Of a stretch of DNA of 64,000 nt, positions 10,079 through 23,210 are shown piece by piece (within the stretch, counting starts at the first letter, position 1; each line of letters begins with the position of its first letter). The DNA comes from Photorhabdus noenieputensis (GTDB lineage Bacteria; Pseudomonadota; Gammaproteobacteria; Enterobacterales; Enterobacteriaceae), in the NCBI RefSeq assembly GCF_018448935.1, contig NZ_RCWC01000001.1, forward strand, positions 310,001 to 374,000. The letters are read 5' to 3'. The position numbers and the translations under genes were made by a program. The notes beneath the pieces were generated by a model that saw only the letters and a program-made list of their open reading frames with translations, searched no databases and was not told the DNA's origin.

Positions 10079-10995
10079 GCTGTGTCCCTTAATATCAATT
10101 AATAGTATTATTATCTGATTGATTTCGATGCAGGAACAAAATGGTGGCACGTTACGACATTTCTGATGATGCTTGGATATTGATAGAATCTTGTTTGCCC
10201 CCTGTACGTTCAGGGCAGGCAGGACGTCCACATGTTGAACACCGCAGTGTGATGAATGGGATGTTCTGGGTGTTATGTTCAGGTGCGCCGTGGCGCGATT
10301 TGCCTGAACGCTACGGTCCCTGGAAAACGGTTTATAACCGATTTAACCGTTGGTCAAAATCAGGCATTATCAATAAGATATTTAACCGATTACTGTCCAT
10401 TCTGGATGAAAAATGCCTCATAGACTGGTCTGAAATTTGTCTGGATGGCAGCCATGTTCGTGCCAGTAAAGATGCTGCCGGGGCGAAAAAAAACATCCCG
10501 ATATCGCTGACGATCATGCGTTGGGTCGCTCACGCGGTGGTTATGGCACCAAAATCCACCTGGCAACTGACGGAAAGGGCTTCCCACTCAACCTGATGTT
10601 GACGGCAGGCCAGGCCCATGAGAGTCAAACGGCTATTCCTTTGCTCGATGGCATTGGCGTCCAACGCAAGAATGGTTTTATGAAACGGCGTGGCAAAGCG
10701 GTGTTGGCAGATAAAGGCTATTCGGGAAGAAAACTCCGCGGTTACCTGCGCAAATTGAGAATAAAGAGCATTATTCCTTATAAAATCAATGAAAAAGGGA
10801 ATAGTGATGGTCGTACACAATTTGATGAACAGGCTTATTGTGACCGTAATGTTGTCGAACGCTGTTTTGGTTTTTTGAAAGGTAATCGACGTATTGCAAC
10901 ACGCTATGAAAAAACAGCACGAAACTATCTGTCGATGGTGAAATTAGGCTGTATTCGACTCTTTTGCCGGAGATTATATAATTAAGGGACACTAC
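10079..10995 (+). mobile_element. IS5-family insertion sequence (917 bp), complete
   Basis: The ends are imperfect inverted repeats (GCTGTGTCCCTTAAT left, GTAGTGTCCCTTAAT right, reverse complement), flanked by a 4-bp target duplication CTAG at 10075-10078 and 10996-10999, the YTAR-type target of IS5 relatives. It carries a two-frame DDE transposase. It sits between the Kiwa unit and the packaging genes, inside the prophage late region. Confidence 0.88.
10141..10985 (+). CDS. IS5-family (IS427-like) transposase made by -1 frameshifting
   Basis: The first frame (10141-10596) and second frame (open to 10985) join at A8 (10486-10493), where the zero frame reads gcg-aaA-AAA-AAC, a canonical A AAA AAC slippery heptamer. 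The joined product is a DDE transposase: the first Asp in SEICLDGSHV, the second in LADKGYSGR, and Glu in NVVERCFGFLK. Without the shift the product loses the second and third catalytic residues, which keeps transposition rare. No inactivating mutation is seen. Confidence 0.85.
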
Positions 10996-11437: not shown

Positions 11438-12157
11438 ATGGCAAAAAATACTGACTGGGAGGGAATAGAGCGTGATTACCGTTCTGGCTTTCTCTCAATC
11501 AGGGAGATTGCCAAACAACACGGTATTAGTGATGCAGCGATTCGGAAGAGAGCGAAAACTGAGGGATGGGTTCGCACTATTGTTGAAAGTACGCAGTGCG
11601 GACCTGATGCGAACCAAGCGGAAAGTCAGGTAGCAAGTAGCACCAGTAATATCTTGGAGTCTGAAAAGTTCGCAGAGAGTTCGCAAGGAACCGCAGGGAT
11701 TCTAAAGCCGCAATACGAACAGTTTGCTCAAAACATAGCGGCGGGTATGCCGATGAAAGAGGCGGCAATTTGTGCGGGTTACTCTCCAGCCCGTGCTGAT
11801 TCTCAATCATCCATATTGATACGCAGACCGGAAATAAAAGCCCGCATTCGAGAACTGAGAAACGAAGCGGCGTTGCTTGTTTCATTCAATGCTGGACACT
11901 TGGCTGAATTGTCGTTTCGTGCTGGGAAGGAAGCGTTAGCAGATAAGAAATTCGGGCAGGTTGCCCCAAATATTAAAAATGCCGCGCAACTTACCGGTAT
12001 CGATATGAGCAGCAATAAAACTGAGGTCAATGTTGATCTCGCTGGTCTGAGTTATGGCAAGGTCTGTATTGTCACGCCTGCCAATTGCCCGGCTGATGTC
12101 TGGTCAACATATATGGAGAAACTGCGCGAGGGAAAACAGGTAGCCCAGTCATCATAG
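11438..12157 (+). CDS. Terminase small subunit
   Basis: A 239-aa DNA-recognition subunit of the packaging motor. The N-terminus has an HTH (residues about 12-40, [19 protein letters not shown]). A second conserved part begins near residue 90 ([23 protein letters not shown]), the usual terminase small-subunit domain, followed by an oligomerisation segment. The last codons (gag gga aaa cag) contain a slippery heptamer leading into the large-subunit frame. The TAG stop at 12155 lies inside the loop of a downstream hairpin. Confidence 0.85.
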
Positions 12158-12191
12158 ATGGTGTTCTGTACGCTTTTAGTAGTGACTGGGC
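12130..12191 (+). promoter_or_regulatory. Candidate -1 ribosomal frameshift signal joining TerS to TerL
   Basis: Slippery heptamer G GGA AAA (12130-12136) is in register with the small-terminase frame. A 6-base spacer (12137-12142) leads to stem GCCCAGTC (12143-12150) paired with GACTGGGC (12184-12191). A -1 slip enters exactly the frame of the large terminase, which has no ATG, GTG or TTG before its Walker A motif. All three elements of a classical signal are present with normal spacing; function is inferred. Confidence 0.65.
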
Positions 12192-13401
12192 GACAGAAGT
12201 TTTATATGACCGAGCATTAGGTTCTGTTCGTTGGCGTTGGACATATGGCGGGCGTGGTGGCGGTAAATCGGTAGAGATTGCTCGTGCGCTGGTATTGTTG
12301 GGTGCTATAGAACTGATGACGATTCTCTGTGCCCGTGAATTCCAGAACTCAATCAATGATTCTGTTCTTGCCCTGCTTGAAGCACAAATCATTGATCTTG
12401 GCCTGTCCCACTTCTATAAGGTCAAAAACAACGAGATTGAAGGTCGGAACGGCACTCGTTTCACGTTTAAAGGTCTTCGCAACAATATTCAAAGCATCAA
12501 GTCGATGCATGGCATTAAGATCTGTTGGGTTGAAGAGGCTCAGACCGTTTCGCAAGATAGTTGGGATATTCTTGGGCCAACTGTACGTGCTAATAAATCC
12601 GAAGTCTGGGTTTCTTTCAACCCTCGCGAGGAAGAGGACCCGACATACAAACTGATGACCCGGCATCAGGAAGATCCCCCTGACGGTGGCGTTATTATTC
12701 GAAAAGTTAACTATTGTGATAACGCCTTTTTCCCTGACGTACTCCGGCAGGAAATGGAATATTGCAAACGCATCGATTATGAAGCGTATGAGCATATTTG
12801 GCTTGGGTTACCAAAAGCACTCAGTGAAGCGGTTATCTTCTCTGGGAAATACCGTGTTGAAGCATTTTCTGATGAGCTATGGCTAGAAGCTGACCGACTT
12901 TTCTATGGAGCTGACTTTGGTTTCGCTAATGACCCGTCCACACTGGTTCGCTGCTTCATTATTGGTACCAAACTATATATCGAATATGAAGCCTATGGAG
13001 TAGGCGTTGAATTAGATGAAATGCCCCAGTTCTATGATTCGGTGCCGCTTTCTCGTAAATGGCCCATTCATGGGGACAGTAGCCGACCGGAAACTATCAG
13101 TTACTTATCACGCCAGGGGTTCGTTATCGATGGTGCCACAAAATGGCCGGGGAGCGTTGAGGATGGGATCACTTACCTAAAAGGGTTTGAAGAAATCATT
13201 ATTCATGAACGCTGTAAACACATGATTGATGAGGCAAGACTCTATTCATACAAGACTGACCGACTGACCGGTGAAATCCTGCCGGTGGTGCTCGACAAAC
13301 ATAACCATTTATGGGATGCGGTACGTTATTCGCTGGATGGTTATATCACAGGCAAAAACAACCCACTTCGTATATCTAAAAATCTGTTGGGGCGAATTTA
13401 A
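12136..13401 (+). CDS. Terminase large subunit (ATPase-nuclease), no canonical start
   Basis: Packaging motor of the PBSX/XtmB type. Walker A is GGRGGGKS (around 12251), Walker B ICWVEEAQ (around 12524), and the nuclease aspartate lies in [10 protein letters not shown] near 12910, with [12 protein letters not shown] near the end. The frame opens at 12097, and the first ATG/GTG/TTG is a TTG at 12295, after Walker A, which would give a dead enzyme. Translation must therefore start at a rare codon (CTG 12100, ATA 12109, ATC 12151 or ATA 12154) or enter by -1 frameshift from the small subunit near 12136. The latter gives about 421 residues after the junction, a normal length. Confidence 0.88.
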
Positions 13402-22157: not shown

Positions 22158-22594
22158 TGTCAGACACAATCACTTCTGCTGATGCGGTAATTACCCTGAC
22201 TGTGACCAATTTATACCCGTCTGGTGTGCAATTACAGGGATTTGCCGCCGACAACATTTTCGAAACTGAGGCGTTGGATTTGGCTGAAACGGTACGTGGG
22301 GCGGACGGTAAACTGTCAGCGGGTTTTATCTACGGCAATATCAATCAGACGATTCATATTATGCCTGATTCAGAAAGTCGCACCATTTTTGATACCTGGG
22401 CAACGACATCACGTACTAGCGTCGCGGTGTTCAGATGTAATGCGACGGTTATTCTTCCGGCCATCGGGCGTAAATACACATTGGTGAACGGCGTTCTGAA
22501 GCAATGGAAAACCATGCCGGACGCAGGAAAGGTTTTACAAGCGGTGCAGGCCGTCATTGAGTGGGAATCAATAACAGGTGAGGCATATAGCTAA
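22157..22594 (+). CDS. Tail tube protein, DUF3277-like
   Basis: A 145-aa tube subunit following the sheath with an ATG/TAA overlap. The start TSADAVITLTVTNLYPSGVQLQGFAADNIF and the later GFIYGNINQTIHIMPDSES fit DUF3277 tube proteins. Its place between sheath and tail-assembly chaperone is the expected one. Confidence 0.8.
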   Translation: MSDTITSADAVITLTVTNLYPSGVQLQGFAADNIFETEALDLAETVRGADGKLSAGFIYGNINQTIHIMPDSESRTIFDTWATTSRTSVAVFRCNATVILPAIGRKYTLVNGVLKQWKTMPDAGKVLQAVQAVIEWESITGEAYS

Positions 22595-23001
22595 TGGCAC
22601 GTAAAGAAACCTTCATCACTATGAATGATGATAATCGCGACAAAGGAAAGCTTTTTTACATTCAGGAAATGCCCGCTTCGCAGGCTGAATGGTGGGCTAT
22701 TCGTGCATTGATGGCAATGGGGAGAGAGGGGTTGGATATCCCCGATAATTTTCGGGATTTGGGCATGGCTGCATTAGCGGTGGTTGGATTGAAAGCAATT
22801 TCTCGCATTGCTCCTGATGAAGCCAGGCCACTACTTGATGAACTGATGGGTTGTGTGCAGATGGTTCCGAATCAGGCAGATAAAAAAATCAAACGCGAAC
22901 TGATCGACAGTGACATTGAAGAAATTGTTACCCGGCTGAAATTACGTGCAGAGGTGCTTAAGTTACACGTGGATTTTTTCAAAACCGCCAACCAATCGTA
23001 A
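22594..23001 (+). CDS. Tail assembly chaperone, short form (gpG-like)
   Basis: A 135-aa chaperone that coats the tape-measure protein before tube assembly. Its 3' end contains the slippery heptamer T TTT TTC (22974-22980) in register with this frame; most ribosomes continue to the TAA at 22999. The overlap of one base with the tube gene and the position before the tape measure fit the family. Confidence 0.78.
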   Translation: MARKETFITMNDDNRDKGKLFYIQEMPASQAEWWAIRALMAMGREGLDIPDNFRDLGMAALAVVGLKAISRIAPDEARPLLDELMGCVQMVPNQADKKIKRELIDSDIEEIVTRLKLRAEVLKLHVDFFKTANQS

Positions 23002-23210
23002 TCCCGCCGCGCTATTCCAGCATCTCAAGACCATTCGGTATCGTCGGTTATACAAATGTCCCAGGCACAATAGCGACCGTTATCTCATCAGGAAAAGCAA
23101 CTCTCCATGAGCTGGATACAGTTTATGGCGTGGAGGACCTTTGGCAGTTAATAGAGATTATTCAGGTCGATAATCACAATGCTTACGTTTTACAGCAGGG
23201 TAAAAACTGA
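22594..23210 (+). CDS. Tail assembly chaperone, -1 frameshift product (gpGT-like)
   Basis: A -1 shift at T TTT TTC (22974-22980) continues reading to the TGA at 23208, adding about 76 residues with a GYTNVPGTIA segment and the conserved-looking LHELDTVYGVEDLWQLIEII. The extension has no start of its own and ends directly at the tape-measure ATG. This is the well-known conserved frameshift of tail assembly genes; the extension recruits the tail tube. Confidence 0.8.

Follow-up and report, generated by a model that had tools for sequence, protein, structure and literature searches.

Programmed frameshifts are known in phage tail genes, and the heptamer at which lambda gpG is extended into gpGT is G GGA AAG. 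The treatment of this pair in PMC5009743 places the shift near the end of the first gene, where it adds an extension to an abundant short protein, the two products being needed in unequal amounts; it gives a gpG:gpGT ratio of 30:1 and describes G GGA AAG as highly shift-prone in E. coli. The locus described here is similar in the placing of the shift and in the addition of an extension to a short protein expected to be abundant, with both products needed in unequal amounts, but it differs in that terminase subunits would be joined, the extension being a complete motor ATPase/nuclease of 421 residues. It also lacks the lambda G/GT position just before the tape measure gene, the genes here being those of the small (TerS) and large (TerL) terminase subunits. 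The -1 frameshifts of dnaX and of IS3-type elements share with our locus an X XXY YYZ heptamer and, in one half of the clade of relatives examined, a downstream structure; they differ from it in that no conserved upstream Shine-Dalgarno sequence is present here and the hairpin is found in only 31 of 52 aligned rows.

Recoding has been proposed for terminase genes before, as bypassing in Hau3 and as a putative shift inside terL in vB_MoxS-R1 (PMC9030533, PMC5009743), but in both the recoding lies within a terminase gene, and the relevant portions of these papers describe neither a TerS-TerL fusion nor a conserved canonical heptamer. Within the portion of the open-licence literature on terminase recoding or fusion that was covered, no report of a TerS-TerL frameshift was found, and the word 'terminase' is absent from the main texts of PRFect (PMC10885494), Antonov 2013 (PMC3711429) and Sharma 2014 (PMC4066793). 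As far as its main text goes, Sharma 2014 places five prophage clusters in supplementary tables; two are known cases, and one of the other three might be a TerS-TerL frameshift. Provisionally, then, the -1 frameshift mechanism is known and the terminase-subunit target is apparently new. For the terminase itself, PMC9611059 indicates that a stable TerS:TerL complex is known for few viruses, with a stoichiometry that varies between them, that TerS rings contain 8 to 12 subunits, mostly 9, and that a holoenzyme of 9 TerS : 2 TerL has been seen for P22. The same paper reports that in lambda and P22 TerL is bound by the C-terminal part of TerS, the site on P22 TerL being its N-terminus; the contact is thus the one that would be made covalent here, but in those complexes the subunits are separate chains.

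The window, that is, the whole stretch of 64,000 nucleotides of Photorhabdus noenieputensis DNA that was analysed, contains the following features at the terS-terL junction.

11438..12157, + strand: TerS (small terminase) gene, an ORF of 239 aa, taken as frame 0
12130..12136, + strand: slippery heptamer G GGA AAA, in register with TerS, kept in 52/52 distinct junctions as GGGAAA[A/G]
12136..13401, + strand: TerL (large terminase) frame reached by a -1 slip, 421 aa, ending at TAA 13399-13401
12143..12191, + strand: downstream hairpin, with arms 12143-12152 and 12182-12191 plus an upper stem, starting 6 nt past the heptamer
12151..12156, + strand: ATC ATA, rival non-ATG starts, encoding the Ile-Ile of a conserved IIDGVLY motif
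12155..12157, + strand: TerS stop codon TAG, within the hairpin, 18 nt 3' of the heptamer

The upstream gene has weak helix-turn-helix matches in its N-terminal part, a Terminase_2 core and a conserved C-terminal part. Its match to Pfam PF03592 (Terminase_2) is marginal by itself (8.4e-6, 26.9 bits against a cut-off of 26.1); PHROG small-terminase families match it with up to 86.3 bits, and solved small terminases weakly (best 6.6e-7, residues 88-190). Its last codons read GAG GGA AAA CAG GTA GCC CAG TCA TCA TAG. The downstream frame carries a Walker A motif, YGGRGGGKS, from 12244, and matches both the ATPase domain of Terminase_3 (PF04466, 2.9e-40) and the nuclease domain Terminase_3C (PF17288, 3.3e-15), its profile also matching the solved structures 4IDH/4IFE (gene 2 protein) and 2WBN (terminase large subunit). 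The terS-terL region of the window is very probably part of a Photorhabdus prophage.

The original prediction held that a -1 frameshift at the end of terS was the only obvious way to translate TerL, and the elements on which it was built were confirmed on the sequence: the TerL frame, which opens at 12097, contains no ATG, GTG or TTG ahead of Walker A, the first being TTG 12295; GGGAAAA lies at 12130-12136 in TerS register; and the stem arms GCCCAGTC (12143-12150) and GACTGGGC (12184-12191) are present. Comparison of 52 distinct junctions strongly supports this interpretation. We consider it highly probable that a programmed -1 ribosomal frameshift at G GGA AAA generates a TerS-TerL fusion of 654 residues and that this would be the normal, and probably the only, route to TerL.

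Other potential recoding signals were seen in the same window. The ORF at 22594-23001 ends with an in-frame T TTT TTC (22974-22980), and the -1 frame after it is closed by a TGA immediately 5' of the ORF at 23210, which is tape-measure-like; the pair, spanning 22594-23209, is likely to be the tail assembly chaperone pair of the same prophage, with a second, classical frameshift. Upstream of terS, a transposase at 10141-10985, which we take to be IS5-like, occupies two frames that overlap, and A AAA AAC stands at 10488.

The junction was present in 63 entries, among which the window is counted three times (as the window, L001 and L087). With 714 nt required 5' of Walker A, 62 of the 63 gave 52 distinct sequences, one of them the window's. 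They came from a first IMG/VR search (best 80 of 94 candidate contigs), from named genomes of Photorhabdus, Escherichia, Serratia, Xenorhabdus, Pantoea and Morganella, from Providencia phage PSTCR3 and from further genomes of a nearest-genome search. The closest named relative, Photorhabdus heterorhabditis (L094), has a TerL that is 100% identical. At least 80% of the query was matched in 17 of 5,426 E. coli RefSeq genomes, with any match in 24, and two of these prophages were taken; only the window's own genome, of 394 sampled from the order, matched at E 1e-200 or better; and 6 of the nearest 97 genomes matched at 1e-120 or better, giving 7 matches with the window's own included, among them a 5'-truncated TerL (G010) and two outgroup TerLs (G037, 64% identity, and the second match of G007, 52%). 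Outgroup TerLs are at most 66% identical, and no full-length TerL fell between 66% and 78% among the matches listed. The frameshift looks as though it was gained once, at the base of the clade.

Some of these prophages have decayed. L091 and L103, which lack the junction, were left out of the count; the latter, from Photorhabdus thracensis, holds a TerL remnant that lacks its 5' part, and no TerS junction was seen in its vicinity, and L091, of the same genus, has a 5'-truncated TerL. L011, close to the Photorhabdus type, and L047, to which L105 (Morganella psychrotolerans) is identical here, were kept, but since terS is broken further upstream in all three, conservation in them, which accounts for two of the 52 rows, proves nothing. 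For the same reason L011, in which TAG directly follows the heptamer, was dropped as a telling case. The decayed copies speak for the possibility that the window's prophage has itself decayed, with loss of the ATG of TerL and the heptamer as a relic; as an isolated phage carries the junction and 52 distinct sequences show it to be strongly constrained, this explanation is refuted for the clade and for the window we give it almost no credence. Across the window (11438-12154) and its relatives, two unlike types of TerS N-terminal part (one beginning MAKPDWGALQ...) were seen on a conserved C-terminal half, a sign of domain swapping.

In all 52 distinct junctions GGGAAA[A/G] stands exactly 114 nt 5' of Walker A. 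A second IMG/VR scan, made with an N-terminal profile and restricted to the best 80 of at least 568 relatives, yielded 38 loci with the motif; these came from 32 contigs already sampled and 6 new ones, and the heptamer was found in 38/38 of the loci listed. Loss of the heptamer in relatives, which was to count against a frameshift, was thus seen in none of the 52 junctions and none of the 38 loci of the second scan. Six of its seven bases had no substitution in the 52 junctions, and GGGAAA was the longest invariant run in 1,038 aligned columns (-260 to +777), the columns being anchored on Walker A without gaps and misregistered 5' of about -230 in rows with a one-codon terS deletion. When parsimony steps were counted on a FastTree tree (length 3.9), the third positions of 174 degenerate codons with an invariant amino acid showed a mode of 7 steps; zero steps were found for the GGA (Gly) codon of the heptamer and for one Cys codon at +519, and 20 other invariant Gly codons had 5-16 steps each. 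The codon 5' of GGA varies in meaning (GAG 47, ACG 3, GCG 2; Glu, Thr or Ala), its third base being always G. The Lys codon of the heptamer is AAG in 33 rows and AAA in 19 (4 steps), a variation permitted by the rule X XXY YYZ, which leaves the last base free. In 62 of 63 loci a frame-0 stop follows the heptamer at a distance of 15 or 18 nt, the exception being L011 with 0 nt. In the outgroup, by comparison, GGGAAAR occurred in the 200 nt 5' of Walker A in one of 106 distinct TerLs (L134). The junction has three properties of a canonical -1 frameshift site, namely an in-register heptamer, an early frame-0 stop with an open -1 frame and reduced synonymous variation.

The same fused product would be expected if RNA polymerase rather than the ribosome made the -1 shift. 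Runs of three G and three or four A, such as make up this site, are too short for transcriptional slippage, and the invariance of six bases in codon register agrees with slippage of tRNAs in tandem, so that slippage of the polymerase seems an exceedingly poor candidate. A -1 shift at this site agrees with the pattern of substitutions on its two sides. Steps at TerS codon positions 1/2/3 were 45/31/277 upstream (-233 to -115), 12/18/3 in the overlap (-107 to -94) and 76/821/135 downstream (-90 to +300), TerS position 2 being TerL position 3; in the aligned junctions, the phase of substitution changes from the TerS to the TerL frame just 3' of GGGAAA. The figures for the overlap are supportive but not decisive alone, given its shortness and the fact that a single TerS first position accounts for 8 of the 33 steps.

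Start codons were surveyed in 220 of 239 loci, the 19 others having no Walker A pattern followed by 120 residues. The clade set of 97 loci, many of them present twice, reduced to 46 distinct 150-nt junctions, and the outgroup of 123 loci to 106 distinct TerLs. By a lenient test, a start codon is present 15-60 residues before Walker A in all 106 outgroup TerLs, 94 of which have an ATG there; the ATG of the nearest outgroups mostly precedes Walker A by 25-27 codons. Within the clade, no start codon lies between the heptamer and 15 residues before Walker A in 32 of 46 distinct junctions, and the remaining 14 have 17 starts in five different places, the commonest (10) being 18 residues before Walker A. 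In 13 of the 46 the open frame also lacks a start 5' of the heptamer. Against a frameshift, the -1 frame of several relatives, including PSTCR3, contains a GTG or TTG within terS, 10 codons 5' of the heptamer; in most of the E. coli group a stop comes after this codon, and in the window the codon is CTG.

Database annotation places the start of TerL at scattered GTG or TTG codons, and it could be supposed that TerL is initiated there or, in the window, at TTG 12295. The annotated TerL of E. coli PSJ-22 (L003 2006-3211, locus position 2006 being a GTG at -54 nt) omits the conserved IIDGVLY segment, and that of PSTCR3 (L002 1672-2820) begins after Walker A. However, the positions differ between relatives, with 32 junctions having none as noted above; the starts in PSTCR3 and the window would remove Walker A; and that in E. 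coli removes the nearly invariant IIDGVLY-FSSDW stretch. PSTCR3, as an isolated phage, also speaks against such starts, which we regard as very improbable. On the frameshift reading, TerL is annotated too short in both public records examined.

A more serious alternative is that TerL initiates at the non-AUG codon ATC 12151 or ATA 12154 by termination-reinitiation, the heptamer being there by chance. The Ile-Ile pair at this place is invariant in 52/52 rows, ATA overlaps the TerS stop as ATGA starts do, the N-terminus would then exceed that of the nearest outgroup by only about 5 codons, and a weak Shine-Dalgarno-like tetramer lies 4-18 nt before the rival ATH start in 14 of 52 rows, a point against the frameshift. 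However, the other 38 rows have none of the tetramers looked for, and an ATG at either place, which for 12151 the original prediction had named as a finding that would contradict it, is present in 0/52 rows. The first ATH codon is ATA in 42 rows and ATC in 10, and the second drifts among ATT (28), ATC (13) and ATA (11) with 8 steps; moreover, ATA is already imposed by the TAA/TAG stop of the other frame. Upstream of this codon the substitutions keep to the -1 frame, the overlap steps numbering 18 at TerL third positions against 3 at those of TerS, in a stretch short enough for this to be supportive only, and the invariant GGA and the fixed G before it would be left unexplained. Initiation at these codons is consequently unlikely, and we read ATC ATA at 12151..12156 as ordinary Ile codons.

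The downstream hairpin proved to be less general than the heptamer. When the window's sequence is folded, the basal stem lengthens to 10 pairs and is topped by an upper stem (-25.4 kcal/mol, z = -2.7). The rows fall into two groups according to residue 7 of TerL. Where this is Val (31 rows, 20 distinct 80-nt segments, including the window's), all share the 10-pair basal stem and the upper stem, 6 nt past the heptamer, with energies of -25 to -33 kcal/mol and z of -2.7 to -5.4, and 95.8% of 400 cells are paired as against 31-52% when the arms are slid. Of the 20 pairs, 13 never vary, 5 vary on one side and 2 depart by unpaired cells only, three being broken in 5-7 of the 20 rows. No two-sided change was seen in these 20 pairs across the 20 segments, and covariation gave no support for the hairpin, the shuffle control being equal or higher in 500/500 shuffles. 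Where residue 7 is Thr (21 rows, 15 distinct segments; the E. coli, Providencia, Xenorhabdus, Pantoea and Morganella type), a strong common structure was not found (z +1.6 to -3.3), the consensus keeping a five-pair core. Four E. coli-type loci (L003, L005, L018 and L098) have a different long hairpin about 18 nt past the heptamer (z -1.5 to -3.3), which may replace the missing stem.

The junction comparison that had been proposed as a check therefore came out in part as foreseen: the heptamer is kept and no ATG is present in the 52 rows, but the stem is strong in 31 and absent or different in 21. For this reason the hairpin is considered accessory. Canonical -1 sites often have a stimulatory structure downstream or a Shine-Dalgarno upstream, but neither is indispensable. 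As a universal stimulator it was rejected, being absent from the Thr half of the clade, and it is likely to be a stimulator in the window's half only. We also rejected a dnaX-like upstream Shine-Dalgarno, as GGAG, GGAA and GGAT vary freely and are not conserved. On the evidence of the alignment, the heptamer is the sole signal common to the clade.

According to the proposed mechanism, most ribosomes would terminate at the TerS stop 18 nt on, giving free TerS. In a minority, the P-site and A-site tRNAs would both slip back one base, so that reading would continue into TerL, and in Photorhabdus, Serratia and the other members of the half to which the window belongs, the strong hairpin 6 nt downstream probably raises this rate. 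The predicted fusion consists of 233 TerS and 421 TerL residues (654 in all, 73.4 kDa). A phage without TerL forms no plaques. Providencia phage PSTCR3, which carries the junction, was isolated from a plaque; TerL must therefore be made in PSTCR3.

By analogy with lambda gpG/gpGT, the fused chain would be a minor fraction of TerS, and a minority of fused chains would be found within TerS rings. With the C-terminus of TerS joined to the N-terminus of TerL, the frameshift would both determine the proportion of the subunits and hold a TerL on the TerS ring, since it joins the ends that bind each other in P22. We lean towards a model in which TerL is made only as the fusion, the motor consists of a few fused chains in rings of free TerS, and the rate of frameshifting fixes the composition of the terminase holoenzyme. 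With this finding, programmed frameshifting would no longer be a matter of tail assembly but would reach the motor that packages the genome, and it would provide a natural covalent link between TerS and TerL. The TerS:TerL ratio would then be encoded in the mRNA and the contact fixed, making the architecture of the holoenzyme testable.
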